A DNA stretch of 64,000 nucleotides. It comes from Akkermansia muciniphila. GTDB lineage: Bacteria > Verrucomicrobiota > Verrucomicrobiia > Limisphaerales > SIBE01. Below the pieces are notes generated by a model. The model ran no database searches. It was not told where the DNA came from and saw only the letters and a list, made by a program, of their open reading frames with translations. The position numbers and the translations under genes are program-made. This document shows, one piece after another, positions 1,880 through 52,036 of this stretch (its first letter is position 1; each line of letters starts with the position of its first letter). The stretch spans positions 16,302 through 80,301 of the forward strand of contig CAMAWP010000001.1 in NCBI GenBank assembly GCA_945861765.1. The letters run 5' to 3'.

Positions 1880-2773
1880 TTATAAGGAATCATCCATGAA
1901 AAACATTTCGGAACTTTTACTCTTCGTAGGAATCGAAGGCTGCACGTCAACCCGTTCGCGTGAAGAAGAAGTTGGATAGAGAGCCAACCGTGAAGCATCA
2001 AAAAGAGATTCGAATTTAACACGAGGAAGAACATCCAAAATCCCTCCCGTCGTAGCATTGATGATTTGGATTCCTTTGGAATGAGCGACCGCTTGCAGCA
2101 TGCGATATTGCTGCCATAAAAGGATTAGATGACGACATTGACCTTCCATATAACCACTTTTCTGGCTGTCTACCCACATATCGGTTCCGCCACGAACGCA
2201 GGCATGTTGAGACTCCTCATAAAAATGCGTGCTTTCGTGGAGATGCAAGATCCAGTCATGATCACACCCCAAAAGATAAATCTCTCGAAACCCCATGTAT
2301 ATGGCAATTGGTAGCACCATGATGGGAGCGGTCCAAGGGGCAGGAATCGGTCGAGTCAAATCACAGTGTTGTATAACAAGGCCATCTTGGAGACGAACAA
2401 AGTAGCTTTCACGGTTTTCAAAAAGTCCGTTTTTCAAATTACGTTCGCGATCAGTTAGTCCAAAAAACATCGTGGCGTTGCGAGTGCCCGCACTGACCTC
2501 CCGCATCCAAGAGTGCCAAACCTCTTCCGTGAAAGGTGGGTAATGAAAAGGAGCGATGCTGTAATAACGGGGATTAATGAACCAGTAATCAGGATGAACA
2601 AAAAAGTTACTCAAAGCAAAACACGTTTCTCCTTGAAGCAGTTTTAAGTTTTGCTTCTTGATACTAGGCCCTGTCGCTAGAATAAAACACCTTTCGCCGA
2701 GATGACGATCCTTAAGCCCTCTATTACGTTCCAAAAGCTCATTTAACTCCAAATCAAGTAAGGGATGTGTCAT
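1880..2773 (-). CDS. DUF115/MptE-like or CST-type sialyltransferase-like protein
   Basis: CFILATGPSIKKQNLKLLQGE and MGFREIYLLGCDHDWILH; paralogous to the N-terminus of the 21804-23867 ORF. Confidence 0.65.
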   Translation of the reverse strand: MTHPLLDLELNELLERNRGLKDRHLGERCFILATGPSIKKQNLKLLQGETCFALSNFFVHPDYWFINPRYYSIAPFHYPPFTEEVWHSWMREVSAGTRNATMFFGLTDRERNLKNGLFENRESYFVRLQDGLVIQHCDLTRPIPAPWTAPIMVLPIAIYMGFREIYLLGCDHDWILHLHESTHFYEESQHACVRGGTDMWVDSQKSGYMEGQCRHLILLWQQYRMLQAVAHSKGIQIINATTGGILDVLPRVKFESLFDASRLALYPTSSSRERVDVQPSIPTKSKSSEMFFMDDSL

Positions 2774-2880
2774 TTCTAAGTTCAGCTAAAAGTCAAAATT
2801 TAGAAGTCAGAAATTCATCAAAATAAAATCCTGCACTATCTCTTCACGCCTTTGTATCTCGATAAAGTTCCAAGAGCACT

Positions 2881-3615
2881 TCAGAGCTGGGTAGTTACAC
2901 CTAATCCTCGCTTGTGAAAAACCGTTAAGGCCAGATCTAAATCTTCGACAGTGTCGATATCAACAGAAATTTCCGTTGGCATTTGGTAGGCCAACATTTT
3001 ATCACCATTAAACAAAGGCTGAGATCTATCCGGAAGAATAGGAGCCAAGAAGATGGCACCGTTGGGAAGATAATACTCAGGAAGGCCCTGGCGCATAGGA
3101 TTTGTTTTGGAGACTTCGAAGCAGAAATCAAAATAACCATTTTTTCTCTTGAACATGAGTTTTCCAATTTTATTGGAGATCACAGAAACAGAACCCAAAG
3201 TATCGTAGCAAGTTTTTCGCTTTAAGAAATACTGCTCTATCGCGTCATCGAGATGCTGCGCTGTTCTCAATGGAGACGTGGGAAGAAGCGCTACGACATA
3301 ATCAAACGCAGCATTCTGGTTTGACTTAAGCCAATCGATGCAATGGTAAATTCCGTCGGCCAGGGATGCATCGTGGGTTGCAAGGTGTTCGGGCCGCATA
3401 AAAGGAACCTCCGCACCACAGGCTCGTGAGATCTCCGCAATTTCTGCGTTGTTTGTAGAAACAATCGTTCGATCAACATATTTGGAACCGCGCCCTGCAC
3501 CGATTGTCCAGGCAACCATTGGCTTCCCACCGAAATCAAGGATGTTTTTATTTCTTAAGCCCTGAGAGCCACCACGAGCGCCGATAAAACAAAGAATTTT
3601 CTGGTTCTGATACAT
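2881..3615 (-). CDS. CMP-N-acylneuraminate (nonulosonate) cytidylyltransferase family
   Basis: IGARGGSQGLRNKNILDFGGKPMVAWTI N-terminal signature and LLPTSPLRTAQHLDDAI. Confidence 0.88.
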   Translation of the reverse strand: MYQNQKILCFIGARGGSQGLRNKNILDFGGKPMVAWTIGAGRGSKYVDRTIVSTNNAEIAEISRACGAEVPFMRPEHLATHDASLADGIYHCIDWLKSNQNAAFDYVVALLPTSPLRTAQHLDDAIEQYFLKRKTCYDTLGSVSVISNKIGKLMFKRKNGYFDFCFEVSKTNPMRQGLPEYYLPNGAIFLAPILPDRSQPLFNGDKMLAYQMPTEISVDIDTVEDLDLALTVFHKRGLGVTTQL

Positions 3616-3646
3616 GGAACTAAGACCATTTAGGACCGCCGAGATT

Positions 3647-5227
3647 TTAGAGAGCTACAGATTCACTTTCAATAGGGGCTTTCAAATTCCTTGGATTGAA
3701 ATTGAAGGACTTCTGCTTATAGGCAACCGGCTCGATGAATTCATCACAATCATGCCAATGTCTCTTGGCTTGTGCGAGCAACCTTAGATTCCTTTGGCGA
3801 ACAATTTCTTGAAGCCCAATGAGTTGCATGGCAGAAAACTTGTGAGAAATAACAGCGGTTGGTTTTGAAGCGTCACCGAGGTCTTTGATAAAGGCCTCCA
3901 GATCTCCGCCATACTGCTCGATGATCGCATTCTTATAAGTGTAATACCACTCTGAACCAGGGTAAGGCGTAGCAAAATGGGGTTTCGCGTGAAGGCCGAT
4001 CTGAAGCAGGCTGTTAATCATCGTTTCCACACTCTCAAAGGTCTCATCTGGAAATCCAATAATCACATTGGGAATGGGGATGATCCCAGAATCGAGGGTC
4101 AATTTCACACACTCTATGTTTTTCTTGGCATTGGAGCCTTTGCCCAAAGTGGAAAGGATCTTGTCGTCGAAAGATTCCAGGCCATAAACAAGATGCGAGC
4201 AACCCGCTTTAAACATGGCGTCCAGTGTTTCTTTCCGAACCAAAGAAGCGTGGCTCGTTCCGGACCAGTGAACGCCACGGCAATTTTCATCGTGCGGAAC
4301 GCCATCCCGTTGACAAGTGGGTTGGAGGCCAGCTTTAACCCATTCTTCGCAGAGCTGGAACATCCAAGTGCGTTTGCTGAAAACATCCATCGTCATAAAA
4401 TTTTCATCGACGAAGCTGCAAAAATCGATGTCATATTTTTCAACGAGTTCTTTGACCATTGAAACAATGTATTTGGGATGATGGTAGCGGATATTCCTGC
4501 CATTGGTGAAAACGACATCCATCTCGCCTTCCGGATTCTTCTCCACCAAGAAATCGCCGCTCGTACCCAGGTGCCAACAAAACTTACAAAAGAGGCTGCA
4601 ACCGATGCTACCCATGATATCGATTCGGCGTTTGGACGTATAATTAGCTTCACTATAAAGCAGTCTTGAGTTTGCAAAATATTGATCAAGAGGCAATAGG
4701 TCCCATGCTGGGTAAGGGAGGATATCAAGGTTTTTTATGTTGGGACGGACTGCGTTGAGTTGTGCTTTGCCACTTTGATTTCGATAACAAACACCCAGTG
4801 TTTGACTAAAATCGAAATCTTTCCGGTCGATTTTCTCGAGCACTTCAACCCAAGTGACATAGGCTTCGCCAACGATCCCCAAATCAATTTCCGGCAGCCA
4901 TTCCATCATTTCCAGTGGCATGCTGGTATAGAAGCCGCCGCCGGCAATGATGCAGGAATTTGGATTAGTTTTTCGGGCGATTTTGAGAATTCTTTTGATG
5001 GAGCTATAAGCAGTGATGAGCCCACCCACTCCAATGACATCCCAATGATCGGCTTTGCACGAGGCTTCGACTGCATCGTCTCCAAGTCGATGACAGTTTT
5101 CGTCGTAGATCGCAACCTGATGCCCTTTCTTGAGGGCAATGCTCGCAAGCAGGGATATCCCATAAGGAATATGCTTGGCCGAGCTTTCCTCGCGCACAAC
5201 GGGGTTGATTAATAGAATTTTTGCCAT
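3647..5227 (-). CDS. B12-binding-domain radical SAM protein
   Basis: N-terminal B12-binding-like domain (ILLINPVVREESS...VIGVGG) and radical SAM CSLFCKFC (CxxxCxxC) motif. Confidence 0.85.
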   Translation of the reverse strand: MAKILLINPVVREESSAKHIPYGISLLASIALKKGHQVAIYDENCHRLGDDAVEASCKADHWDVIGVGGLITAYSSIKRILKIARKTNPNSCIIAGGGFYTSMPLEMMEWLPEIDLGIVGEAYVTWVEVLEKIDRKDFDFSQTLGVCYRNQSGKAQLNAVRPNIKNLDILPYPAWDLLPLDQYFANSRLLYSEANYTSKRRIDIMGSIGCSLFCKFCWHLGTSGDFLVEKNPEGEMDVVFTNGRNIRYHHPKYIVSMVKELVEKYDIDFCSFVDENFMTMDVFSKRTWMFQLCEEWVKAGLQPTCQRDGVPHDENCRGVHWSGTSHASLVRKETLDAMFKAGCSHLVYGLESFDDKILSTLGKGSNAKKNIECVKLTLDSGIIPIPNVIIGFPDETFESVETMINSLLQIGLHAKPHFATPYPGSEWYYTYKNAIIEQYGGDLEAFIKDLGDASKPTAVISHKFSAMQLIGLQEIVRQRNLRLLAQAKRHWHDCDEFIEPVAYKQKSFNFNPRNLKAPIESESVAL

Positions 5228-5231
5228 GGAT

Positions 5232-6290
5232 TTAGATAGCTGAGGTTAAAAGAAAAAAATCATCCAATCTCATGCATTCAAGAGAATTGCCGAAAAGAAC
5301 TCCTCCTTCGGTGCAATTGACAGTATGAGCTTTGCTTTTTCCAAATAATTCGAAGAAGTTCTTTCGGTACCAAGAATAGGTTGCATCTGAGAAGTGAGAC
5401 GTCTGGGTAACCGGAAATTGATAACTAGGGAAATAGGGCTCCAGATTGGCGTCCGTTCCTAAATGTGAAAGCAATTCGTAGTAAGTTTGAGTCTCGTTAA
5501 ATGGGGTATCTGAATAGTAGCCAAAATCCATGCCGGTGAGAGCCACTCGAGGAATTCTAAGAATTTCAGTTGCGAGAATCCAGGAGGCTGAACCTACATT
5601 CCCACCCGTGTTGACGCATGGCAGCTTGTTAATTTCAAAGAGTTCACGAGTCAAACTTTGAGGTTTCTGTGGATCATCAACCAAAGGATTCCACCAATAA
5701 ACATCCAGGCCAGATTCGATGACGCGGTCCACAACGGTGCTGGGAGCTGAAGAGGCCATGAGCATCTTAGAGCGAGATCCAAATCGGTTAACAAGATCAA
5801 TGTGGTGTTTATTCTGAGAGAGGCTGTTTTCACGGAAAGTTTTATCGAGATCTTGCCGAACAAAGAAATCGTCCTTCTTTGAATGTTCGGCAAAGTTAGG
5901 ATCCCCAAACCAGCGAACCATACGCGTTGGATGAGGGTCAAGCGTAACTACAAAATCAGGGATTAACCCTTTCGATAAACATTGAACATAAGCCCCATCA
6001 ACCGCAATTACCGTTCCTTGATAACCCGACTTTAAGATGCGATTGACAACATCGCGCCTGATCGTGCTAGGGCCCGCACTAATGACAATACCAGAACTAG
6101 CCTTGGCCCCCTGGAGCTTTGGCAGGCTCTTGAGACTCCTGCTTGAATGCTTGGCATTTGCTCTGGCGTGCTTTATTAAGGTCTGCTCATGGTAATGCCG
6201 TCCGATTCCCGAGATCGAATCAATGAGTTGATTGAGATCCTTGGTGGGGCTTTCCACTCGATCAAGATCACTCATTAGGTTTATCACCAT
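5232..6290 (-). CDS. DUF115 / motility-associated factor (Maf)-like glycosyltransferase
   Basis: GIVISAGPSTIRRDVVNRI...VIAVDGAYVQCLSKGLIPDFVVTLDPHP...VALTGMDFGY, typical of DUF115 proteins. Confidence 0.75.
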   Translation of the reverse strand: MVINLMSDLDRVESPTKDLNQLIDSISGIGRHYHEQTLIKHARANAKHSSRSLKSLPKLQGAKASSGIVISAGPSTIRRDVVNRILKSGYQGTVIAVDGAYVQCLSKGLIPDFVVTLDPHPTRMVRWFGDPNFAEHSKKDDFFVRQDLDKTFRENSLSQNKHHIDLVNRFGSRSKMLMASSAPSTVVDRVIESGLDVYWWNPLVDDPQKPQSLTRELFEINKLPCVNTGGNVGSASWILATEILRIPRVALTGMDFGYYSDTPFNETQTYYELLSHLGTDANLEPYFPSYQFPVTQTSHFSDATYSWYRKNFFELFGKSKAHTVNCTEGGVLFGNSLECMRLDDFFLLTSAI

Positions 6291-6468
6291 CCCATATCAT
6301 GTCCGTACGCTCCACATACACCATGCTTCCGCCTAATGATCCAAGAGCTTTTTTTCGAAGGTCTTGCATTAACTCTTGGTAATTCTTGTCTTGATCTTTC
6401 ACCTCAGGTTTCTTTTCAAATGAGGGCGGGTTCTTGAGTTGAAAACTTGCTTTTAGAATATCGCTCAT
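6268..6468 (-). CDS. Small hypothetical protein (66 aa), first ORF after the duplicated sigma-54 promoter
   Basis: ORF MSDILKASFQLKNPPSFEKKPEV...MIWDGDKPNE overlapping the start of the DUF115 gene; upstream extension to 6528 runs through flgB-derived sequence. Confidence 0.45.
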   Translation of the reverse strand: MSDILKASFQLKNPPSFEKKPEVKDQDKNYQELMQDLRKKALGSLGGSMVYVERTDMIWDGDKPNE

Positions 6469-6479
6469 AATGGGACGAT

Positions 6480-6563
6480 TTAACGACCTGTTCCGAGAGC
6501 AGTAGCGTCGAGCATTTTTTCCAGCCATCGATAATTATTGCTCGTGAACGGTCCGCTAACCAT
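6480..6563 (-). pseudogene. Truncated flgB 5' fragment (MVSGPFTSNNYRWLEKMLDATALGTGR*)
   Basis: Aligns with FlgB N-terminus MVNGLFASNNYQGLKKMLDATVMRHEA at 51919; DNA similarity continues upstream through the promoter. Confidence 0.85.
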
Positions 6564-6583
6564 AGATTTCACTTATTTCCCGC

Positions 6584-6600
6584 AAGCAATCGACGTGCCA
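6584..6600 (-). promoter_or_regulatory. Sigma-54 (-24/-12) promoter, copy A
   Basis: Minus strand TGGCACGTCGATTGCTT matches the TGGCACG-N4-TTGCW consensus. Confidence 0.8.
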
Positions 6601-6651
6601 CGCGAGCCCGAAGGCAAACCTACCCGAATGCAACCTCTAGATCTCCTTTAC

Positions 6652-6677
6652 GGAAAAACATGCCACGCACTTTTTCC
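6652..6677. promoter_or_regulatory. Candidate enhancer-binding-protein site (inverted repeat), copy A
   Basis: GGAAAAA-N12-TTTTTCC about 50-90 bp upstream of the sigma-54 promoter; conserved in copy B. Confidence 0.5.
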
Positions 6678-6736
6678 TCTGCCGTAATTTTTTCCGTTAA
6701 CAGTTATTCCCTTTTTAAGCTCCTCTCCAAAGCAAA

Positions 6737-6764
6737 AGAGCCGCCGAGATGGCTCGGCGGCTCT
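6737..6764 (-). terminator. Rho-independent terminator after the giant glycosyltransferase ORF
   Basis: Perfect 12-bp stem agagccgccgag/ctcggcggctct with 4-nt loop, followed on the minus strand by TTTGCTTT. Confidence 0.85.
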
Positions 6765-6790
6765 GGTAAAGAGATTTCCTTTGGCGCGGA

Positions 6791-9700
6791 TTATTTCGCC
6801 TTGGATTCAGCCAATGATTGCTCGATCAACGCCGCGGCAGTGGGCAACGTTTCGCGCAACTGAGCAAGACGAGCGTTGATCGTCAATACGGCTTCTTTGG
6901 AATTGGTGACGAGAAGGCGACGATACCAAGCGAGCAGTTCCCGACTGAGATTAGCCTCCTGATCTGGAGAAACAACCAATCGGGCCCTTTCGCCCATAGC
7001 GAGTTGGCACAGGATGGTTGCGGCTTGAGCTGATGGTTTATGAGCATGGGCCTTATGCTGGAAAAAAGGCAAAGCCTCTGAAAACTGGCCCGCTTTAAAC
7101 AAGATTTCACCACGGAACGCAGTCACGGCCTCATGCTCGGGAAAGTATTTGATTGCCTCTCCTGTCCAGTCCAAACCGAAATCCAAAAAATCTGGCTTGC
7201 TGTTGGCGATAAAACCACCGAGGCACCAGATACGCTCCTCGTTCAATTCCAGGCCGATCGCGTTATGCAGAATTTGAAGAGCCTCCAGTGATCGATTTTC
7301 CTTGTGGAGAAAACGAGCGTAATCATGAATGGCGCCACCCGCCCTAGGATCGAGTTCCAAAGCCCGTTTGAATTCCTTTTCAGCTTCGTCGTTTTGACCG
7401 GTCGTGGCCAGGCACTCGGCCAGTAAATGGTAGGGACCCGCCTTCAGAATGTCCTGGCAAGCCGGTGTCAGCGCAGGGATGTCGCGCTTCGCCAGACAGC
7501 CGCGGATATGCGGAATTGCTTCGCCGGCGCGTTTGAGTCGCATCAACGCCAATGCTGCCAGAAAACTCATCGACGCCGTAGGCCCGGCATCGTTCGCCAT
7601 CCGCGATGTCATTAATTTCAGAAGTTCTTCTAAGTTCCCGGCTTTTAAGAGGTGAACACCAAACAGGGTTAACAACCGTTCGCGCACTTCTGGAAGAACA
7701 AGTTTCGGCTGGTGAGGCTCCAGAGCGGCAACAGCTAGGCGATATTTCTCCAAGCCTTCTTCGAGCCTTCCGTCATTCACCAGATCAAGTCCATAGTTCA
7801 TGAGCAGCGCCGCCTCGTCGGGCATCTCCTCGACCGCTCGCTCCATCAGCTTCAGATTCCGTTTAACCTTCTGACGCTCCTTGACTAGAGCTGGTTCATA
7901 ACCGTGATGATTGATTCGCCCCGTGCCCAATATCGCTTCCATCCCCCATTCAGCTTTGCGGACGATCACACTGGCGTAAATCTGCTCATGCACGCGCCCA
8001 ACGAAAAACAGGGCGGGCGCGTTCCGGAATAATCGCGGAACGTATGTCACGGAGTCCAAGGACTCGTGGACATTACAGATGGGAATTCGATACCCGAGCA
8101 CATTCTGAGCAGCCATATCTTCAGTTAACTTCTGATGGCTCTCGACAGGCATCTCCTCGTCCGCATCAAGTATCAAGACCCAATCACCAATCGCATGTTC
8201 ATGGGCAGCATTGCGCGCATCGCTGAAATTATCGTTCCATTCGAAGTAATAGACCTCAGCTCCGTTTTCCTTGGCAATTGCCACCGTTCGATCGGTTGAT
8301 CCCGTGTCCACCACGACAATCTGGGTGGCGATTGGCTTGACCGAATCAAGGCATTGCTTGATGAACCGCTCCTCATTCTTAACAATCAGGCAGACGCTCA
8401 GCCGCGGCTTATCGGTGGAAGGAAGCGGCGTCCATTTGATCTTGGAATGAGTGACTTTTTTCTGAGTGTGCAGGGAAGCATAGACTTTCTTAGCGAGATC
8501 CCAGTGAGGCGTCATCTGGAGCAATCGTTCGGCACAAATCAGCGCTTGACGTTCGTCTCCGGCAGATAGCGCGATCTCGACCATCTGAAGGTAGGCATCG
8601 GGATGGAAAGGGCGGAGATTAATTGCGTCCAACGTCGCATTCCATGCCTTTAAATATTTCTTGCGATCAAGCAAATCATGCACCTTCTTGAGCGATCCTA
8701 TCGAGGCCACCCGAGGGACCTCGACCTTCGGCGGGGCCTTGGGTATTTGAGTTCCCATTTCGGCAGAAGAGTTCGCCAATGTAACTCCGGCCTTTTGCAA
8801 GAGGTCAGCCCCATGGCGGGAATGTGCAATTCGCGTTTCTTCGGCCGCACGCCCTTGGTTGGAGTGCTCGACGCTTGTCGGAGACTTCAAATAGAGACCT
8901 AGCGTTTGAGGCACGTGCAGAAACTCGCGAGTCTTGGCCAAACGCATCCAAAATTCGTAATCCCCCGCCGAGACAAACGTGGGATCAAAAAAACCATGCT
9001 CTTGGTGCACCTCATGACGCCACATCGGCTGAGGCCCGACAAAGCAGCCTCGTTGGACAAGGGCTCCCGGGTCGAATTCAAGCCAGTTATAGGTTCCAAT
9101 TCGTCGAGCAGTATCAAACGTCGAGTTTTCCTGATCCGTGATCAAAACGTCGGCGTAAACCAAAGCAACCTTCGGATGTTCATCAAGGGTGCGGACAAGT
9201 ATTTCAAAGGCGTCTTTCCGATGGCGATCGTCCGAATTAGCATTCGTCAGATATTTGCCGCGAGCTGCGCGGATTCCACGATTCCAAGCAGCATAGACGG
9301 TCTCACGCTCTTCAGTACGAACATAAACTATGTTATCGTAACGGCTCTGAAACTCCTCAACGATAGCTCGCTCATTCTGCTGTGAACCGCTATCGATCAC
9401 GATTATTTCGAGTCGGTCAGCAATGGTCTGAGCCTCCAGATCTTCCAAACAGCCGCGCATAAAACGCTCTGAGTTGTAAGTGGAGACGATCGCGGAAACC
9501 ACCGGAGGTTTAGAAAGTGAAGGTCTTTCCACTGCGCCACTGGCTGACGCATTGCTATCGAGAAGGAACTCGATATTTTCCTTGGCCACTGCATTGCCCG
9601 GCTCCAATTTCAGCACACGCTCATACATCAACCGAGCCGCTGGAATATCGCCGGTCTTGTAGAAACAAACAGCCATCGCCAGAATCACTTCGAGGTTATC

Positions 9701-12700
9701 CGGGTCCCGTCGGAGGATACGGAAGTACAAATCCGCCCCATCCTTGAACTTCCCTTGCCGCAAGTTCAAGTCAGCCAAGAGCCTCAAAGCAGGAACGTAG
9801 TTGGCGTCCAGCTCCAAGGCGCGACTGAGTGCTGATTCGAAATCGGAAATCCGATCCAGCGCCAGCAACGAGATCGCCAACCGCGTCTGAAAATCCGCGG
9901 AATCAGGGCGCAACCGGACCGCACGAGCCAGCTCAGCCTGACTCGACTCTCCGTCGCCCAACTGAAAGAGCAAACTGCCCAGTGTAGCAAAGATATCCGC
10001 ATCGTTAGGCGCAACACCCGAAGCCTGTCGCAGCACGTCGCACGCGCCGTGCGTGTCGCCTGAAGCAACGAGCTCATTCGCTTTGCTCAGAAGTTCGTCC
10101 AGCAGAGGGCGGACGGATCCCTCTGAGCCCGGGGAGTGCGGCACCTTGCCATCCGAGCCCGCCTGCAGATTTGCGGGGTCTGCCAAACGGCCTGAGTCCG
10201 GCCCAGAGGGCAGGATGCCCGTCAACATGCTCGACAGTTTGCGCGCCACCGTCTCCAGGTTCTCTCGGGCCAGCGTGTTCTGCGGGTCCAATTCGATCGC
10301 GCGTTCGAACATCATCTTAGCCGATTCAAAGTCGCGCACCTTAAAGAAGCAGACCCCCAACGCCATTATGGTTTCCAAGTCATCGGGCGTTTGCTTCAGA
10401 ATCTTGCCGTATTGTTGGGCTGCATCCGCGGCACTGCCGTGATTAAAATTCAGGTGGGCAAGCATCCGGAGAGCTTCTAGGTGGTTGGGATCCAACTCCA
10501 AGGCACGTCCCAAGGCAACCTCGAATTCCGCAGTCTCGCCCAACCGATAATGTGTGAGAGCTAATCGCGCCCAATGGCTCGGATCATCAGCGACATTTTG
10601 GACGAGCCGCCGCAAGAACGTACGGGCTTGAGCCATATCGCCCAACTGGAAACAGAGCGTGCCGAGAGCAGAGAGAATCTCGGTTGTATCGGGCGAAAGC
10701 TCCAAGGCCACTTTCAGCGCCTCGCAGGCAGCCGCCAAGTTCTGGGCCGCAAACGCTGCATCTGCTTTCGCGAGCCAATGTCGCAGTTTTTCAGATTTTG
10801 CTGAGTGAGCACTCGATGCTTCGCCGACTGGCGAAGGAATAGAAGATAACGGAGCTTTTCCAACCTTGAACCCCAGTTGGACAAGATTTTCACGCGCCGT
10901 CGAGTTGGCGGGATCCAGTTCGAGAACCCGTTCATAAACCATCTGCGCAGAGTTCATGTCGCCCCCTCGATAAAAACAGAGCGCCAAGGTCAGCAGACTT
11001 TCGAGATCCTCAGGCGATTTTTCTAATAGCTTGGCATAGGTGCGACCAGCGTCGCGGACCCGGTTGTTCTCAAGATTGGTTTTACCGAGAAACTTGAGAG
11101 CCTCCCGATTCTCTGGATCTATCTCCAATGCAATTCCGAGAGCTGACTCCATTTCCTCGATGCGATTTAACTTGAGACAAGCCATCGCGAGACGGGTATA
11201 AGGGTCGGGATCGCGCGGACGTAGTTCAATCACTCGCCTGAACTTTTCTCGAGCGATCTCGTGATTGCGGAGCGTAAAATGCATACTGCCGAGGGCTGCG
11301 AGGATTTCGGAATCCGAAGGCGCTAGCTCAGCCGCTTCCTCCAACGATTCCAAAGCAGCTTCGCGGTTGCCGGCTTCGCTGAAAAAATGAGCCTGGTCCA
11401 CCAGTTCATTGACACGCTCGGTGGAGGACTGCGTTTTTGATTTGAGATTTGAGATTTGAGATTTGAGAGCGGCATCCTTCACCATCTGTTCCAGGTCAGC
11501 CTGCCCCTCGATTGAACGTTGGATGCTCGATGTTGGATGTTGGGGGTTCGAGGCTTCCTCTTCGCCTCGCGTCACTTTCTGCCGTATTGCCTCAAGATTC
11601 TCCTTCGCTAGCGTGTTTCCTGGTTCTACTTCCAAGGCGCGTTGAAAAACCGCCTTGGCCGTTTCGAGATCTCCGGTTTTAAAGAAGCAAACCCCCAGCG
11701 GGAGCATTGCATGAATATCATCGGGATAGCGGCTGAGAATCTTGGTGTAAGTCTGAGCGGCATTCTTCAGGCTACCATGCTGAAAATTTAAGTTAGCCAA
11801 TGCTCGAAGGGCTTCGAGGTGGTAAGGGTCCAATTCCAAAGCGCGGGCTAAAGCGGTTTCAAACTCTTCAATGTGCTCAAGCTTGAGGTGAGCGATCGCT
11901 AATTGAAGAAAGGCGGTAGGATCATCAGGCTTGAGTTGAGTCAGCCGTTCAAATTGTCCCCGAGCTAAATCAAAATCATTTAAACCAAAGGCTACAATAC
12001 CGAGCGCACCAATGATCTCGCAGTCGTCGGGAGCAATCCTCACCGCTTCGAGCAAAAGGCGGCGCGCACTGGGAAAGTTCCCCTTTTGGTGCTCGGCGTC
12101 GGCCTGTGCCAGCAGCCCAGCTACAGTTGGGATCGGGGATTCAGCAGTTGAGCTTGCTCCGAGGTTGGGTGCCACAACTCGGAGATCAGAACTTGGGCGC
12201 GCGGCCGGTTCGAGATTCGATGTTGGATGAAGGATGTTGGATGTTGGATGTTCAGCGCGTCCAACTCGGCGTTGGATTAAGGAAAGGTTTTCTCCGGCGA
12301 CAGGATGATTTGGAGAAACCTGGAGGACCTTTTCAAAAACCACTCGTGCCGTCTCGAACTCATCGGCTTTAAGGAAACAGTTACCTAACGCAAGCAACGC
12401 TTCCAAATCCTCGGGTGATTGGTTGAGGATCTTGGCGTAAGCTTGGCCAGCGTCCTTCCAGTTACCCTCCTGAAAATTCAATTCAGCCAGGAGCTTGAGC
12501 GCCTCGCGATGGAATGGATCAAGTTCCAGAGCACGGCCAAGCGCGGCTTCGAAGTCCTCAACACGTTCGAGCCTCAAATTAGTCAAGGCAAGCTGCACAA
12601 ATGCGGATGCGTCATTTGGGCGCAAAGCCGTCACTCGGAGAAAAAACTGAAGAGCCAGACCAAAGTCGCCAAGCCGGAACAAAACGACACCTAGGGAATC

Positions 12701-13864
12701 CATCAGAGAGGCGTTCTCTGACTCCAGTTTGAGCACTCGCTCGAACGCGGTCGATGCTCTGTCGAAATCCTTAAGCTTTACCATGCAACGGCCAAGATGC
12801 AGTAATGCGTCGAGATCAGTGGGAGTCCGATGGACTATATCTAGATAGACTTCGCCTGCTTCCTTGTAACACCCGTTGTCCATCGCAATGCGACCAAGTA
12901 ACATCAGCGCGTCGAGATTTGACGGCTCAAGCGTCAGCGCTTGTTTCAAAAACGCTGTTGCTTCCGGAACACGTTCCAGAGCCTTCAAAACGGTGGCGAT
13001 GTCAATGAGCGCCGGAACATTGTTTGGAGCTTTGCCGACGAAAAAGTGCAAAGCCAGCTTCCATAAACCAAGCAGGTTCTGTCGAAAATCTTGCCGCAGA
13101 GAAGGCTGCCGCAGGACTTCGATTCCTTTTTTGAGCAGCTCATCCCCCGCGAACTTATACTCTGCCGCATCCTGATTCGTACACCCCCAAGATTCAGCAT
13201 GATTCCGGTAAAGGACGAGTGGCTTATCAATGTAAATCATCTGCTTTAACAAGCCCGACTGCACCAAGAGGAGATACTCGGAATAAAGTGCAAAATTCCC
13301 TCGAGCCAAGCGTTGAACGCCACCGAGACTTTTTAGATAACCCACTTCGTAAACCCCGGTGGTTCCAATGGCCCGCACCTTCCCGCTGAGGTACAACTGA
13401 ATAAATTGCCCACCTTGGAGAAGATAGGTCTTTCCACTGAAAAGCTTGGTTTCATCAACGAGAACCTGCCCTTCAATAACACCGTATGCCGAAAACGCGC
13501 AGGCTGGAAATCCGCTTTGGGTGAGAGCTTCATGAATGTTGCTTAGAAACTCCGGGGCATAGAGATCGTCATCTGCTTGCCATGTGAAATAGCGACCTCT
13601 GCTCAAACCGAGCAGAGCATTCATATTATCCACCTCGCCAAGGTTCTCCGGATGATTCACAAATCGAACCCGCGGATCATCGATGCCAAACAGCTCGGGC
13701 GAAAGAGTTTCTTGTGTGTAATCGTTGCCGACAATTACTTCAAAATCTTTGAAGCTCTGATCGAGGATCGACAAGAGCGTTTGCTTCAGCAACTCTCGAC
13801 GATTGTACGTGGTTACTCCGATGGAAAAGAACGGTGTCATTGAGATAAGCTCTGACGTGCGCAC
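6791..13864 (-). CDS. Giant multidomain protein (2357 aa): three GT2 glycosyltransferase domains and five homologous TPR modules
   Basis: GT2 motifs: FSIGVTTYNRRELLKQTLLSIL; VSAIVSTYNSERFMRGCLEDL; LSVCLIVKNEERFIKQCLDSV...ILDADEE; many TPRs (e.g. ALGRALELDPNHLEALRMLAHLNF). Confidence 0.88.
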   Translation of the reverse strand: MRTSELISMTPFFSIGVTTYNRRELLKQTLLSILDQSFKDFEVIVGNDYTQETLSPELFGIDDPRVRFVNHPENLGEVDNMNALLGLSRGRYFTWQADDDLYAPEFLSNIHEALTQSGFPACAFSAYGVIEGQVLVDETKLFSGKTYLLQGGQFIQLYLSGKVRAIGTTGVYEVGYLKSLGGVQRLARGNFALYSEYLLLVQSGLLKQMIYIDKPLVLYRNHAESWGCTNQDAAEYKFAGDELLKKGIEVLRQPSLRQDFRQNLLGLWKLALHFFVGKAPNNVPALIDIATVLKALERVPEATAFLKQALTLEPSNLDALMLLGRIAMDNGCYKEAGEVYLDIVHRTPTDLDALLHLGRCMVKLKDFDRASTAFERVLKLESENASLMDSLGVVLFRLGDFGLALQFFLRVTALRPNDASAFVQLALTNLRLERVEDFEAALGRALELDPFHREALKLLAELNFQEGNWKDAGQAYAKILNQSPEDLEALLALGNCFLKADEFETARVVFEKVLQVSPNHPVAGENLSLIQRRVGRAEHPTSNILHPTSNLEPAARPSSDLRVVAPNLGASSTAESPIPTVAGLLAQADAEHQKGNFPSARRLLLEAVRIAPDDCEIIGALGIVAFGLNDFDLARGQFERLTQLKPDDPTAFLQLAIAHLKLEHIEEFETALARALELDPYHLEALRALANLNFQHGSLKNAAQTYTKILSRYPDDIHAMLPLGVCFFKTGDLETAKAVFQRALEVEPGNTLAKENLEAIRQKVTRGEEEASNPQHPTSSIQRSIEGQADLEQMVKDAALKSQISNLKSKTQSSTERVNELVDQAHFFSEAGNREAALESLEEAAELAPSDSEILAALGSMHFTLRNHEIAREKFRRVIELRPRDPDPYTRLAMACLKLNRIEEMESALGIALEIDPENREALKFLGKTNLENNRVRDAGRTYAKLLEKSPEDLESLLTLALCFYRGGDMNSAQMVYERVLELDPANSTARENLVQLGFKVGKAPLSSIPSPVGEASSAHSAKSEKLRHWLAKADAAFAAQNLAAACEALKVALELSPDTTEILSALGTLCFQLGDMAQARTFLRRLVQNVADDPSHWARLALTHYRLGETAEFEVALGRALELDPNHLEALRMLAHLNFNHGSAADAAQQYGKILKQTPDDLETIMALGVCFFKVRDFESAKMMFERAIELDPQNTLARENLETVARKLSSMLTGILPSGPDSGRLADPANLQAGSDGKVPHSPGSEGSVRPLLDELLSKANELVASGDTHGACDVLRQASGVAPNDADIFATLGSLLFQLGDGESSQAELARAVRLRPDSADFQTRLAISLLALDRISDFESALSRALELDANYVPALRLLADLNLRQGKFKDGADLYFRILRRDPDNLEVILAMAVCFYKTGDIPAARLMYERVLKLEPGNAVAKENIEFLLDSNASASGAVERPSLSKPPVVSAIVSTYNSERFMRGCLEDLEAQTIADRLEIIVIDSGSQQNERAIVEEFQSRYDNIVYVRTEERETVYAAWNRGIRAARGKYLTNANSDDRHRKDAFEILVRTLDEHPKVALVYADVLITDQENSTFDTARRIGTYNWLEFDPGALVQRGCFVGPQPMWRHEVHQEHGFFDPTFVSAGDYEFWMRLAKTREFLHVPQTLGLYLKSPTSVEHSNQGRAAEETRIAHSRHGADLLQKAGVTLANSSAEMGTQIPKAPPKVEVPRVASIGSLKKVHDLLDRKKYLKAWNATLDAINLRPFHPDAYLQMVEIALSAGDERQALICAERLLQMTPHWDLAKKVYASLHTQKKVTHSKIKWTPLPSTDKPRLSVCLIVKNEERFIKQCLDSVKPIATQIVVVDTGSTDRTVAIAKENGAEVYYFEWNDNFSDARNAAHEHAIGDWVLILDADEEMPVESHQKLTEDMAAQNVLGYRIPICNVHESLDSVTYVPRLFRNAPALFFVGRVHEQIYASVIVRKAEWGMEAILGTGRINHHGYEPALVKERQKVKRNLKLMERAVEEMPDEAALLMNYGLDLVNDGRLEEGLEKYRLAVAALEPHQPKLVLPEVRERLLTLFGVHLLKAGNLEELLKLMTSRMANDAGPTASMSFLAALALMRLKRAGEAIPHIRGCLAKRDIPALTPACQDILKAGPYHLLAECLATTGQNDEAEKEFKRALELDPRAGGAIHDYARFLHKENRSLEALQILHNAIGLELNEERIWCLGGFIANSKPDFLDFGLDWTGEAIKYFPEHEAVTAFRGEILFKAGQFSEALPFFQHKAHAHKPSAQAATILCQLAMGERARLVVSPDQEANLSRELLAWYRRLLVTNSKEAVLTINARLAQLRETLPTAAALIEQSLAESKAK
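11435..11469. repeat. Short tandem repeat tttgaga(tttgaga)n inside a linker of the giant GT
   Basis: tttgatttgagatttgagatttgagatttgagag; encodes KSQISNLKSKTQ on the minus strand. Confidence 0.85.
11510..11552. repeat. gatgttggatgttgg-type repeat inside a linker of the giant GT
   Basis: gattgaacgttggatgctcgatgttggatgttgggggttcgag; encodes NPQHPTSSIQRSIE on the minus strand. Confidence 0.8.
12208..12255. repeat. gatgttggatgttgg-type repeat, second copy
   Basis: gttcgagattcgatgttggatgaaggatgttggatgttggatgttcag; encodes EHPTSNILHPTSNLE on the minus strand. Confidence 0.85.
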
Positions 13865-24003: not shown

Positions 24004-24759
24004 TTAGACCTTAGCCCTGTTCTTGATCAACTCCTCAACAACTATCCAGTCCCCAGGCTCGTCCAATTCAAAATATGTCTCTTCCGGCATTACATAGGCC
24101 GTGATGCGACCTGCGATTCTGCTGCCACTCTCAAGCAAAACGCGTCGAGAACAGATGTAAAAAGCTCCGTTCTCCACAAGGAACCCTGGGAACTCCTGCC
24201 GACGCGGCCGTTTCATAGGATCGTAGTTCCATGGCATGACAAAACCATCGCCTCGCTCCTGCCAGACAAAACGCTTCTGCCGCACGACAGATAGAAGCGC
24301 ATCTGCGTTTGTGCTCCTAAATTGTGCGATGCCACCCGTTAAATCTTCGCTGGTAAGGAGAGGCGATGTGGCCTGAATCAATATCATGTGTTCGAACTCA
24401 TTCTCTCGTGCGAACTCGATCATGGCTGATTCAGTGCTCGCAGTGTCCGTGGCTGTTTCCGTGCTCCGCGAGACCACTTTCACTCGATCCGATCGAAACG
24501 CCTCGGCAACGGAACCTACCAGATTGTCGTCGGTCGAAACATAGACGCGCTCGATCTCGATGCACCCGAGAGCCGCTTCGATCACCCAACATGCCAGCGG
24601 CTTCCCTCCCAAAGGAGCGATGTTCTTGTGAGGAATACTCTTGCTCCCGCCTCTGAGCGGAATAAACGCTATCAACTTCTCGATTCTGGCACCAATTTTC
24701 ACAACTCGATCCAGTTTACCTGCTACAGGTGCCCTTCGAGCCGTTCCAAAGCTTTCCAA
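24004..24759 (-). CDS. CMP-N-acylneuraminate (nonulosonate) cytidylyltransferase
   Basis: IAFIPLRGGSKSIPHKNIAPLGGKPLACWVIEAAL; ILIQATSPLLTSEDL. Confidence 0.88.
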   Translation of the reverse strand: MESFGTARRAPVAGKLDRVVKIGARIEKLIAFIPLRGGSKSIPHKNIAPLGGKPLACWVIEAALGCIEIERVYVSTDDNLVGSVAEAFRSDRVKVVSRSTETATDTASTESAMIEFARENEFEHMILIQATSPLLTSEDLTGGIAQFRSTNADALLSVVRQKRFVWQERGDGFVMPWNYDPMKRPRRQEFPGFLVENGAFYICSRRVLLESGSRIAGRITAYVMPEETYFELDEPGDWIVVEELIKNRAKV

Positions 24760-26972
24760 AATCCTTCCCCTTCATTTTTGTGGCCCTGCCAAATCTCGGG
24801 GATGAATGACGCATCCGGTGCAACTTCGCAAAGATCTTCTCCCAGCCCAGTAAAATCAATGTCTCCTTCGCCGATCTGAACACCCTCGCCATCCACGCCC
24901 AACGCATCAGATATATGCAGGTGGGCAACAAACGGCCCGACCGTTCGGATGAATTCCTTAAATGACACCTTGTAATGATTGCAAGCCAGCTTCGAATGGC
25001 AGATATCCAAGCACAACCGCAGATTCTGGCTTCGGCAAAACTCTGCAGTGTCAGCCGCCTCCACAAAAAGGTTCAAATAAAGTTGCCCCCCAAAGTACCA
25101 CGGAAACGGAGGCAGAGTCTGTCCAATGATTTCTACGCCGTCGGTATCTAACTTCTGCAGACTCTCTGCCATGATCTCATACAATCGAGCTCGCTCGCTC
25201 GGCACCAAAAGCCTGTCTGAAGTCGCCCCGCCGAGGCTCGCAACGATCATAGGACGGTCGGCACGGCGGAAGAACCGCTTCATTTCACGAGTCAAATCGA
25301 TGACTCTTTGCAACTCAGCAACGGATCGTTTCCGATGAATCTTGTCCTCCGACGCCAGGTTAAGCAGATGGTCTCCCGCAAATGTGTCTGGACTGTGAAC
25401 GACCAAACCCAGATCGAATTCCCCATCAATGAAACGCCGGACATCCTCGTCCATATCTTTGAAGCTAAGGTGAAATTCGAGAAAATCGGGGTTTGACTTT
25501 TGTAAGAGCAATCCAAAATCGTGGTACCTCACCGGAAGACCCCATTTACGCTTGAATGAGTATTGTCTAGCAGACGTGGCAACGACATCGAGATCGCTCG
25601 GGAAAAAGAAATCTCCTTTGCGCATGCAACGTCCAATCCTCCGCCCGATCAACTCCATCTTACGATTTGGCTGAAGTCCACGGCCGGGACTCTTGGTTGC
25701 AATCATATCTTCAGTGATCACTTCGCCGACGGCAACGTCTCGCGCAGCCACCAAACTCTTCGCGAGTGTGACGCGATTCATCACTTCGCCAGGGCTTAAT
25801 GACCGGACTGTGGATGAGCCTATGGCTTGCTCAACATCTCTAATCGCCAGCACCATGCGTCGAAATTCATCCGGAAGCAGGCTCACTTTGTGATCGTTGC
25901 CCTCCATCGAACGATCAAGCGTAATATGCTTCTCGATCACGCGCGCTCCCAGCGCGACCGCTGCAACGCAAACGTCCACGCCTCGTTCATGACCCGAATA
26001 ACCGACATGGCAGCCGCCTATTTCTTTCAACCGAGCCATGTAGCTCAAGTTAACGTCTTTGAAAGGGGCAGGATAAGTTGAATTGCAATGGAGTAGAACG
26101 TATTGCGAGCCTAGACGGTTTAACAATGAGACTGTTTCAACAATCTCGCTCTCCATGGACATACCTGTCGAACATAATATGGTCTTGTTTGTCCTGGCAA
26201 CAGCGCCGATCAGCTCATGATTGGTCAAGTCGGCGGATGCGATCTTGTAGCCCTGCATCCCAATTGCTTCGAGAAAGTTCAAGCTAGGGATATCCCACGG
26301 AGTACACAACGGCAGCAGACCACGCGCAGAACAATACTCGAACAATAGCTTCATCTCCTCGGGAGGCAGTTCGAACTTCGACAGGAGATTCATCGTGTAC
26401 TGAGTGCCTAAATCCTCATTGTAGGCATCGCTAAGCTGATTGCGGTAAAGCGAAGCGAGGTCGCGCATTTGAAACTTCGCACAGTCCGCCCCCGCCTCCT
26501 TCGCCGCGTCGATTAAGCGCTTCGCCAGTTCCACGCTTCCGTTGTGGTTGATTCCGATCTCCGCAATAATGAATGTAGGTGAGCCATTCTCAATGAGAAA
26601 GTCCCCTATTTGGATTGCATCTTCTTTGCGGCGCTCACGAGCGACTGCCACCATCCGACCCCGATCATCGGTCATCGGGATATACTGAGTCTTGCCGGAC
26701 AGAATACTCCGCATCTGTTCGACCGAATCGCCGAGATGAGCCCGCCGAAACTGCGTGTTCAAAATTCCACCCACTGGCCGCGAGAAGTCTGGGCTGGGTT
26801 CTTTCAGAAGCCAACGCCGAAAATCACCGTCGGTCAAAATCCCGTCTAAAACACCATCTCTGTCAACGCCAAAGACAATTCGGCGGCGATTCTGATCGAT
26901 CCGGCCAAGCGCATCGCGGATGGATGCCTCCGAACTGATCACATAGGATGAAATATTTCGATCGACTATCAT
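24723..26972 (-). CDS. N-acetylneuraminate synthase-family protein with N-terminal CBS pair, NeuB core, SAF domain and C-terminal sugar-phosphate isomerase-like TIM barrel
   Basis: CBS-like GVDRDGVLDGILTDGDFRRWLL; NeuB FIIAEIGINHNGSVELAKRLIDAAKEAGADCAKFQ; SAF-like SLVAARDVAVGEVITEDMIATKSPGRGL; C-term LRLCLDICHSKLA...HLHISDALGVDGEG. Confidence 0.9.
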   Translation of the reverse strand: MIVDRNISSYVISSEASIRDALGRIDQNRRRIVFGVDRDGVLDGILTDGDFRRWLLKEPSPDFSRPVGGILNTQFRRAHLGDSVEQMRSILSGKTQYIPMTDDRGRMVAVARERRKEDAIQIGDFLIENGSPTFIIAEIGINHNGSVELAKRLIDAAKEAGADCAKFQMRDLASLYRNQLSDAYNEDLGTQYTMNLLSKFELPPEEMKLLFEYCSARGLLPLCTPWDIPSLNFLEAIGMQGYKIASADLTNHELIGAVARTNKTILCSTGMSMESEIVETVSLLNRLGSQYVLLHCNSTYPAPFKDVNLSYMARLKEIGGCHVGYSGHERGVDVCVAAVALGARVIEKHITLDRSMEGNDHKVSLLPDEFRRMVLAIRDVEQAIGSSTVRSLSPGEVMNRVTLAKSLVAARDVAVGEVITEDMIATKSPGRGLQPNRKMELIGRRIGRCMRKGDFFFPSDLDVVATSARQYSFKRKWGLPVRYHDFGLLLQKSNPDFLEFHLSFKDMDEDVRRFIDGEFDLGLVVHSPDTFAGDHLLNLASEDKIHRKRSVAELQRVIDLTREMKRFFRRADRPMIVASLGGATSDRLLVPSERARLYEIMAESLQKLDTDGVEIIGQTLPPFPWYFGGQLYLNLFVEAADTAEFCRSQNLRLCLDICHSKLACNHYKVSFKEFIRTVGPFVAHLHISDALGVDGEGVQIGEGDIDFTGLGEDLCEVAPDASFIPEIWQGHKNEGEGFWKALERLEGHL

Positions 26973-27454: not shown

Positions 27455-28057
27455 TCACGCAGCGGATTCGAGGATAGTGCAGTCCGCGACGACATTGACC
27501 CTGCGGTGCAAGTATTCTAGCAGAAGCAAAGCTCGCTGCCCGTCGTTCAAGCTGCTGACGTATTCCGCTTCCATCCCAGCGAACGGTCCTTCCCGAATTA
27601 AGAGCTTTTGACCTGGAACAAAATTGAAAGAAGACAAAAGCAATTCTGCGGTAGCGACAAAATCAGTAGCTTTCATCTCTTCGATAACGTTCGTCGGCAC
27701 CGAAGCCGGTGCATCGCCGAACCGGACCAGGCCAATTATTCCAGGGCGGCTGGATACAAATCGGCCGGCAGTTTCGAGACAAAGCTGAGCGAAGAAGTAT
27801 CCAGGAAACAGCGGCGTTAAGACGGCTCGCATCTTTCCGCCAACCGGCATCATTTTCCGGATTTGCGGGCAGAAGACATCGATTTCCCCTACAGAAAGTT
27901 TGGTTTCAAAGGATAATCGAGGCATTAATTCAGCGGCTCGGACTTCGTAGCCGACCGTACTTCGGATGCAATACCATTCTTGCGGCATCTCAATTGCACT
28001 CATAGGTCGGGACTTTGTGAACAAATGATCAAGGCAAAGCTGCCGCACCCCGAGCAT
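27455..28057 (-). CDS. NusG/RfaH-like specialised transcription antiterminator
   Basis: EWYCIRSTVGYEVRAAELMPRL...LFPGYFFAQ...KLLIREGPFAGMEAEYVSSLNDGQRALLLL (NGN plus KOW). Internal Met at 28003 may be the true start. Confidence 0.8.
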   Translation of the reverse strand: MLGVRQLCLDHLFTKSRPMSAIEMPQEWYCIRSTVGYEVRAAELMPRLSFETKLSVGEIDVFCPQIRKMMPVGGKMRAVLTPLFPGYFFAQLCLETAGRFVSSRPGIIGLVRFGDAPASVPTNVIEEMKATDFVATAELLLSSFNFVPGQKLLIREGPFAGMEAEYVSSLNDGQRALLLLEYLHRRVNVVADCTILESAA

Positions 28058-28178: not shown

Positions 28179-28997
28179 TTAGGCTCGTAACAATTCCAGG
28201 ACTGACCGTGGCAGAGCGTTGGCCTGAGCTAACATCGTCGTTCCCGACTGTACTAAAATCTGATAGCGGGCATATTGAGTCGCCTCTTGCGCCACATCCA
28301 CGTCAGAAATCCGGCTGATGGCTGAACTGAGGTTTTCCTTCGTGGTGGTCAACTGTTCGCTCGTGAAATTCAAACGCGATTGAACCGCTCCAAGCTTAGC
28401 GCGATCGAGAGCAATTTGGTTTATGGCCGCCCCTACGAAGTTCAAAGCGGCTTGTGCCAGAGTAGAGCTTGTGAGTCCGACGGCAGTCGAGATGGCATCG
28501 TCGTAGGATTGATTCCCTGAGATAGGAGTACCCGTGATGTCAAAAGTGCTCCCCGACGAATCAATCGTAACGGAGAACGTCGTAGCGGAGAAGAGTGAAA
28601 CCGAGTTGAAATCTTTTCCAGCGGTCGCCCGGATGTAATCCTGGAGCTGAGCAAATTCCTGATTGTAGAGCGTGCGGTCTGACGTGGACTTGGTGGTGTC
28701 TTGAGAGAGCATCGCCAGCTCGCCCATTCGGCGGAGAGCCTTATCTATTGTCTTTAAGAAACCGTCTTGAGTCTGGCTGAAGGAAACCGCATTGACGACG
28801 TTGTTTAAAGCCGCGTCCAACCGTCTAATCTGCGATTCCAAACGCGAACTCACAGCCAACCCGGCTGCGTCGTCCGAAGGAGTGATAATTTTTAGACCAG
28901 AACTGAGCCGCGTCAGAGACTTGGAGAGAGCCGATGAACTAGCCCTTAGGTTATTCGACGTCGCCTCGGCAACCGTGTTGGTGTTAATGACTGACAT
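28179..28997 (-). CDS. fliC: Flagellin
   Basis: SALSKSLTRLSSGLKIITPSDDAAGLAVSSRLESQIRRLDAA; C-term SRISDVDVAQEATQYARYQILVQSGTTMLAQANALPRSVLELLR. Confidence 0.97.
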   Translation of the reverse strand: MSVINTNTVAEATSNNLRASSSALSKSLTRLSSGLKIITPSDDAAGLAVSSRLESQIRRLDAALNNVVNAVSFSQTQDGFLKTIDKALRRMGELAMLSQDTTKSTSDRTLYNQEFAQLQDYIRATAGKDFNSVSLFSATTFSVTIDSSGSTFDITGTPISGNQSYDDAISTAVGLTSSTLAQAALNFVGAAINQIALDRAKLGAVQSRLNFTSEQLTTTKENLSSAISRISDVDVAQEATQYARYQILVQSGTTMLAQANALPRSVLELLRA

Positions 28998-29017: not shown

Positions 29018-29039
29018 GACTCCTATCCTTGGAGGAGTC
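29018..29039 (-). promoter_or_regulatory. Candidate CsrA-binding RNA hairpin between the flagellin genes
   Basis: Minus-strand RNA GACUCCU-CCAAGGAU-AGGAGUC: perfect 7-bp stem with CAAGGAU in the loop (cf. CsrA consensus CARGGAU). Confidence 0.5.
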
Positions 29040-29838
29040 GCAAGGCAGACTGCGGAAGAGAGTTCGCTTGCGTCAACATTGAGGTACCGGATGAAACAAG
29101 AATCTGATTGCGAGCGTACCGGGTAGATTCTTCAGCGACATCTGTGTCGGTGATGCGAGAAACTGCCGCACTAAGATTCTCCTTGGTAACGACTAATTGA
29201 TCGCTTGTGAAGTTAAGCCGAGCTTGGTAGGCACCCAGTCTAGCGCGATCCTGCGCCACTTGACTGGTGGCCTCTAGCACTAAAGCCAGCGCCGCTTGGG
29301 CGAATGTGGTGGAGGAAATCGAAACGGCTGTGGAGATAGCGTTCGCATAGGCAGTGTTCCCAAGGATATCCGTCCCAGCCATGGCGAAAGTGTTTCCGCT
29401 CGAATCGACAGTGACATCAAAGGTACTACTCGAGAAAAGCGTCACAGCGTTGTATGTCTTCAGGGCCGTGACGCTAATGTAATCCTGAAGTTGGGTAAAC
29501 TCCTTATTGTAGAGCGACAAGTCCGTACCTGATTTAGTGGTGTCCTGCGCAAGCATGGCAAGTTCACCCATACGACTGAGCGCCTTGTCAATCGTCTTCA
29601 TAAACCCGTCTTGGGTTTGGGTCAACGATACGGCATTGACCACGTTCGACATCGCAGAATCCAAGCGAGCAATCTGGGCCTGCAAGCGTGAAGAAACAGC
29701 CAAACCGGCGGCATCGTCTGATGGGGTAACGATTTTGGTGCCCGAGCTTAACCTAGAGAGCGACTTGGCGAGACTATGCGCGCTCATGTTCAGGTTGTTT
29801 GCGTTTTGGAGGGCTTCGATATTTGTATTGATTACCAT
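29023..29838 (-). CDS. fliC: Flagellin (tandem paralogue)
   Basis: SLAKSLSRLSSGTKIVTPSDDAAGLAVSSRLQAQIARLDSAM; C-term SRITDTDVAEESTRYARNQILVSSGTSMLTQANSLPQSALRLLQG. Confidence 0.97.
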   Translation of the reverse strand: MVINTNIEALQNANNLNMSAHSLAKSLSRLSSGTKIVTPSDDAAGLAVSSRLQAQIARLDSAMSNVVNAVSLTQTQDGFMKTIDKALSRMGELAMLAQDTTKSGTDLSLYNKEFTQLQDYISVTALKTYNAVTLFSSSTFDVTVDSSGNTFAMAGTDILGNTAYANAISTAVSISSTTFAQAALALVLEATSQVAQDRARLGAYQARLNFTSDQLVVTKENLSAAVSRITDTDVAEESTRYARNQILVSSGTSMLTQANSLPQSALRLLQG

Positions 29839-51110: not shown

Positions 51111-51536
51111 TTAATGACGTCCGATGCTTAAGGATTGAAGAGTGATAGCTCGCGAGCTCTTAATTACTGCCAAGTTCGCCTCGAAAGCCCGAGAGGAAGC
51201 GATTAAATCAGCCATTTCCTCATGAATATTAACGTTCGGATAAGCAACCATCCCGTTGGCGTCCGCATCGGGATGTCCCGGCTGTGGGACCATGCGCGGG
51301 GCGCTATTATCCTTCATAATCCGAGCCACGCTCACAAGTTGCGGAACGGCTTCGGAATTAGCGCCGATCTTTTCCTGAAGGAAGGTTTCAAATTTGACGA
51401 CCTGCCGCTGATAAGGTTTCCCACCCTCCGCCTTGGTCGAGTTCGCGTTGGCTATGTTCTGGGCAATGACCTCCGACCGAATCCTCTCGACTTGCATCGC
51501 TGAGGCCGAACTTTGGATTCCAGGTAAAAGGTTCAT
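51111..51536 (-). CDS. flgC: Flagellar basal-body rod protein FlgC
   Basis: QVERIRSEVIAQNIANANSTKAEGGKPYQRQVVKFETF; YPNVNIHEEMADLIASSRAFEANLAVIKSSRAI. Confidence 0.97.
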   Translation of the reverse strand: MNLLPGIQSSASAMQVERIRSEVIAQNIANANSTKAEGGKPYQRQVVKFETFLQEKIGANSEAVPQLVSVARIMKDNSAPRMVPQPGHPDADANGMVAYPNVNIHEEMADLIASSRAFEANLAVIKSSRAITLQSLSIGRH

Positions 51537-51919
51537 TATGATGAGCGACCGGTAATTGCGGCTCTGAGCTTACTGAATCTGCCGCTGACAAATTGAGTCT
51601 GCACTTGGTGAGCCAAGCCGTTTTCTTGCAGGTGAATCAACTCCGTATCAAGCTGAACAGTGTTGCCGTCTCTATTGGCCGCAGGAGCGTTTTTATCGAC
51701 TACAATCCGCGGATCCAAACGGGCGATGTCCGACAAATTACGCGCCCCTACAGCCCGATTCAGTTCGGCACCGAAGCTTGAATCGACGTCGATGCGCTTG
51801 TAATGCGGAGTTTCCAGGTTGGCTAAATTGCTGGCAATTGCCTCGTGACGCATAACGGTAGCGTCGAGCATTTTTTTCAGCCCCTGATAATTATTGCTTG
51901 CGAATAGTCCGTTAACCAT
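51536..51919 (-). CDS. flgB: Flagellar basal-body rod protein FlgB
   Basis: LKKMLDATVMRHEAIASNLANLETPHYKRIDVDSSF. Confidence 0.95.
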   Translation of the reverse strand: MVNGLFASNNYQGLKKMLDATVMRHEAIASNLANLETPHYKRIDVDSSFGAELNRAVGARNLSDIARLDPRIVVDKNAPAANRDGNTVQLDTELIHLQENGLAHQVQTQFVSGRFSKLRAAITGRSS

Positions 51920-51939
51920 AAGTTTTGCCTAATCCCGGC

Positions 51940-51956
51940 AAGCAATCGACGTGCCA
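51940..51956 (-). promoter_or_regulatory. Sigma-54 (-24/-12) promoter of the flgB operon
   Basis: Minus strand TGGCACGTCGATTGCTT, full match to TGGCACG-N4-TTGCW, ~20-37 nt upstream of the flgB ATG. Confidence 0.87.
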
Positions 51957-52006
51957 CGCGAGCCTGAAGGCAAATCCCGCACGAATGTAGCCTCTCGATC
52001 TCCTTT

Positions 52007-52036
52007 ACGGAAAAACCTGCTACGCACTTTTTCCGT
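52007..52036. promoter_or_regulatory. Candidate enhancer-binding-protein site (inverted repeat), copy B
   Basis: ACGGAAAAA-cctgctacgcac-TTTTTCCGT, perfect 9-bp arms with 12-nt spacer ~50-95 bp upstream of the -24/-12 element. Confidence 0.55.

Follow-up and report, generated by a model that had tools for sequence, protein, structure and literature searches.

Horizontally acquired genes need a promoter, and the DNA analysed here (a 64-kb stretch, referred to as the window) raises the question of where one set of glycan genes obtained its own. It appears that a flagellar promoter of the enhancer-dependent sigma-54 type was copied in front of them together with its proximal enhancer sites. The preliminary description had proposed that about 200 bp of the flgB region recur at this position, and pairwise alignment bore this out: blastn of positions 6301–6900 against the window matched 6502–6698 to 51858–52055, both on the minus strand, with 84% identity (166/198 columns, one gap, E = 2e-56). 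The source segment lies before and extends into flgB (51536–51919, minus strand), identified by synteny with relatives as the first gene of the flagellar cluster. Read along the minus strand, the segment comprises palindrome-like A/T-tract sites, the textbook sigma-54 −24/−12 element TGGCACGTCGATTGCTT, a leader (about 11 nt when counted from where transcription is predicted to begin) and the 21 initial flgB codons. Promoter and 5′ coding sequence had thus been correctly named as the content of the duplication, but the upstream enhancer-like sites, which the copy carries as well, had been overlooked. One promoter-bearing segment therefore stands before two non-homologous downstream contexts, flgB and a glycan cassette. 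A search of the genome with the copy as query (7.27 Mb, 556 contigs) found the segment at these two places only. An assembly artefact is unlikely, as both copies reside on one 80-kb contig and diverge by 16%.

Comparison with relatives revealed the direction of copying. Among 97 genomes searched, the flgB segment matched five family relatives besides its own genome (G002, G003, G005, G006 and G007, five of the seven in the family), at one place each and always at flgB, where promoter and 5′ coding sequence are conserved. Promoter cores were kept in these relatives at a distance of 37–40 nt from the start codon. Because none of the five possesses a second copy, the place at 6.5 kb is the copy, as had been supposed, and the reverse direction, from 6.5 kb to flgB, was rejected on the basis of the orthologues. 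The flagellar cluster (27455–54348) is syntenic with that of the congener G002, while the glycan genes to its left found only weak matches on the syntenic G002 contig.

The sigma-54 −24/−12 core of the copy, TGGCACGTCGATTGCT (6585–6600, minus strand), is identical to that of the flgB promoter (51941–51956, minus strand), which is conserved in the family. Both places match the consensus TGGCACG-N4-TTGCT exactly, and the core of the copy is embedded in 27 columns free of mismatches, so that the promoter had rightly been called intact. No further exact match to TGGCACGNNNNTTGCW was found in the window. The transcription starts had been placed at about 6570 and 51928; spacing from the −12 element predicts about 6574 and 51930 instead. 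In the genome as a whole, the strict pattern was met exactly by flgB and the copy, and with one mismatch by a flgF promoter on another contig (C130). The one-mismatch pattern yielded these three here and little else in relatives, and a general repeat of flagellar promoters was accordingly rejected. The flgF promoter lies about 4.4 kb beyond the end of a gene for an NtrC-type activator (receiver, AAA+ and Fis domains), and the same contig also codes for FliD, FliS and FlgG. The genome contains a single RpoN gene (contig C89) and about ten genes for sigma-54 activators. Conservation of the flgB promoter in the family, the flgF promoter, the activator on C130 and the single RpoN together make it a well-supported prediction that the early flagellar genes of this family are under sigma-54 control; the flgB place is the source of the duplication.

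Two predicted activator sites upstream of the core belong to the copied segment. The site GGCATGTTTTTCC (6652–6664) is identical in congener G002 and near-identical in G006, and GGAAAAAATTACG (6683–6695) is identical in G002; they rank 8th and 13th in the 64 kb of the window when scored with a matrix whose training set consisted solely of distal sites from another genus. By the same ranking, the 3rd and 6th best sites form a distal pair before flgB (52304–52316 and 52345–52357) that is not present in the copy. This pair consists of the palindromic GGTAAAAGTTTCC and GGAAGTTTTTACC, 41 bp apart and some 350 bp upstream of the flgB promoter, and has counterparts in genus g2. It is probably the enhancer of a flagellar activator.

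Directly behind the copy lie the 66-aa, DUF115, radical SAM, NeuA-like and MptE-like genes that the preliminary description had placed there, as a five-gene unit on the minus strand (1880–6468). The first gene (6268–6468) encodes a conserved small protein of 66 aa (GGSMVYVER..WDGD). We rejected the notion that this ORF is spurious, since it has homologues in several phyla, at the same position immediately ahead of DUF115 and radical SAM genes. Members of this family measure about 55–75 aa and share GGSMVY...WD near the C-terminus (e.g., L079:4807–4980 and L081:4770–4958); no Pfam or NCBIfam model matched them. The second gene (5232–6290) encodes a DUF115/MptE-like protein (PF01973, 49.4 bits, cut-off 34.6) whose similarity to PseD is weak and falls short of the full-length NCBIfam model (31.8 bits against a cut-off of 670; 352 aa against 640 positions). 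It is followed by a B12-binding radical SAM enzyme (3647–5227; PF02310 and PF04055), a PseF-like CMP-sugar cytidylyltransferase (2881–3615; PF02348) that remains below the PseF equivalog threshold (124.4 bits, cut-off 205.7) and, as the last gene, a second DUF115/MptE-like protein (1880–2773; PF01973, E = 7e-5, below cut-off).

The first three genes constitute a conserved cassette that occurs in other phyla. Relatives of the radical SAM enzyme were 62–71% identical in metagenome-assembled genomes of Deltaproteobacteria, Elusimicrobia, Omnitrophota and Bdellovibrionales and 49% identical in Pelagibacteraceae. In most of them the small-protein and DUF115 genes directly precede the radical SAM gene, and a cytidylyltransferase is often nearby. 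The DUF115 gene of the cassette was found in none of 321 other genomes of the order, and the GC content of the cassette (44.9%) is below that of its surroundings (51–53%). No comparable sigma-54 element was seen in the regions inspected upstream of the cassette relatives. Given the shared gene order in other phyla, the absence of its DUF115 gene from those genomes of the order, the low GC content and the lack of such an element in the inspected regions, the cassette is a horizontally spread, separately acquired unit that received its promoter locally. The NeuB/PseI-like and PseF-like enzymes in the window (NeuB and a second PseF-like gene are encoded besides that of the unit) and the weak PseD similarity of the DUF115 protein suggest that its biochemistry is likely a nonulosonate-type glycan modification; a literature search returned no described function for a cassette of 66-aa protein, DUF115 protein and B12 radical SAM enzyme. 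The cassette is present in Pelagibacteraceae as well, a lineage generally considered non-flagellated, so its product need not act on flagella.

It had been proposed that the copied promoter was retained while the attached coding fragment decayed. This can be measured because source, copy, outgroup and acquired cassette are all readable. We polarised changes with congener G002 as outgroup and compared 53 promoter/enhancer columns (the 27 promoter columns and the two 13-bp enhancer-like sites) with 83 transcribed columns. The copy lineage had accumulated 0/53 and 13/83 changes, respectively (Fisher p = 0.0017, from small counts and with enhancer-like sites of which some recognition came only afterwards, through conservation with the same outgroup); the flgB lineage showed three changes in promoter/enhancer columns and two in the transcribed part. 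Restricted to promoter columns without the enhancer sites, the test for the copy lineage gave p = 0.035. The decay of the FlgB fragment is apparent from substitutions at residues that are invariant in FlgB of the family (L5P, Q12R and G13W) and from loss of the GGCAAAA box that precedes the flgB start; a nonsynonymous bias in the copied codons taken alone was not significant (p = 0.11). The remaining ORF (6480–6563, minus strand; MVSGPFTSNNYRWLEKMLDATALGTGR) comprises 27 codons, namely 21 decayed flgB codons and six from the target site. A truncated FlgB N-terminus had thus been recognised correctly, but its frame does not stop straight after DAT; it continues through the six target-site codons to the stop at 6480. 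Altogether, the case that selection retained the promoter while the FlgB fragment decayed is moderate, not strong.

These data bear on how the arrangement should be read. The sequence shows the duplication, its direction and an intact promoter: a segment of about 200 bp from the flgB locus was duplicated within the chromosome and came to lie 45 kb downstream on the same strand, between the terminator of a glycan operon and the horizontally acquired cassette. We consider it likely that this segment now acts as a promoter of the flagellar regulon. According to this account, RpoN-polymerase, opened by a flagellar NtrC-type activator, would start near 6574 and transcribe the five genes (66-aa, DUF115, radical SAM, PseF-like and DUF115-like) in step with the basal body, with the FlgB fragment remaining as leader sequence, either untranslated or translated over a short stretch. 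The copy thereby probably puts glycan genes under flagellar control; transcription from it, the identity of the activator and a role in modification of flagellin or surface glycans are what we infer from the arrangement of the locus. The further proposition that a compact sigma-54 module (proximal enhancer sites plus −24/−12 elements) was copied and kept by selection, whereby a mobile nonulosonate-type cassette joined the flagellar regulon in one step, seems to us somewhat better than an even bet.

Alternatively, the copy might be a neutral relic of a chance duplication, in which case its promoter would be intact by luck and the cassette would be expressed by read-through or from an unrecognised promoter. 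The evident decay of the FlgB fragment would fit such a relic, as would the modest outcome of the promoter-only test and the longest identical run, which we rejected as proof of selection (p = 0.19). The absence of any copy-lineage change in the promoter and enhancer columns argues against it, and so does the immediate upstream context: the preceding glycan operon ends, as had been noted, in a strong intrinsic terminator (6737–6764, minus strand; 12-bp stem with nine GC pairs, loop of four, T-rich tail), and a search of 6200–7200 gave no sigma-70-like site. We therefore regard a mere relic as rather unlikely. It is also conceivable that the transcribed part is what matters, either because the leader or a short FlgB peptide couples translation to the 66-aa gene or because it loads the RfaH/NusG-like antiterminator encoded at 27455–28057. 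The leader ORF does stop 11 nt before the start of the 66-aa gene at 6468, where no good Shine-Dalgarno sequence was seen, and the RfaH-like gene is present; yet the copy changes fastest in exactly this part (the copy lineage changed at seven columns of the 5′ leader and at six within codons), which renders this explanation very improbable. Less probable still is a mobile repeat or insertion-element remnant that brought the promoter along by chance. A short dispersed duplication requires some copying mechanism, but the junctions of the copy display neither target-site duplications nor terminal inverted repeats, and no repeats longer than 6–7 bp; only two copies exist in the genome, one of them the conserved flgB locus itself. 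A mobile element or MITE was rejected on these grounds.

Promoter copying is known, and so is a Maf gene under sigma-54 control; less usual is an acquired cassette that captures an enhancer-dependent promoter together with its proximal sites. To our knowledge, most documented promoter captures concern sigma-70 promoters, tandem duplications or insertion elements. Placing a copy of an existing promoter before a silent or new gene, known as promoter capture or promoter propagation, is a familiar activation route, as summarised in PMC5906472 with reference to Blount 2012, Matus-Garcia 2012 and Oren 2014. The present locus resembles such cases in that a promoter-bearing segment occurs twice, before unrelated genes, and would serve a newly acquired gene set, but it differs from them by a sigma-54 promoter with enhancer-like sites, by the lack of a detectable mobile element and by a dispersed (45 kb) rather than tandem arrangement. 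In the flaB-jhp0106 operon of Helicobacter pylori, a Maf homologue is under RpoN (PMC5368276), so that a DUF115/Maf-type flagellin-modification gene has a flagellar sigma-54 promoter there too; the Maf gene of H. pylori, however, immediately follows the flagellin gene, whose promoter it shares (PMC5368276), whereas at the present locus a flagellar promoter recurs as a second copy in front of a separate cassette. The Maf/Pse genes of Campylobacter (PseD, PseF) likewise combine a DUF115 protein and a CMP-nonulosonate cytidylyltransferase adjoining flagellin genes, but the DUF115 protein described here has fewer residues and scores far under the PseD cut-off, and the unit adds a B12 radical SAM enzyme and the 66-aa protein. 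If our account is true, the locus represents a natural example of enhancer-dependent promoter capture, and it draws attention to the conserved cassette of 66-aa protein, DUF115 protein and B12 radical SAM enzyme.

Flagellar and glycan genes are also neighbours elsewhere in the window. Two flagellin genes (28179–28997 and 29023–29838) adjoin glycan genes, and the RfaH/NusG-type antiterminator gene (minus strand; 73%, conserved in G002) is situated between them and a long glycan operon. The antiterminator may allow transcription to continue from the flagellar genes into glycan genes. Fourteen flagellin N-terminal matches were counted in the genome (contigs C1, C27, C247, C401, C527 and others), including a run of four at C27:31991–36142; some of them perhaps represent contamination, which was put at 5.9% for this genome. 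The NeuB-type synthase (24723–26972, minus strand) is fused to a CBS domain at its N-terminus and to a xylose-isomerase-like barrel at its C-terminus, and the gene at 6791–13864 (minus strand) encodes a 2357-aa protein with three glycosyltransferase-2 domains and many TPR repeats.
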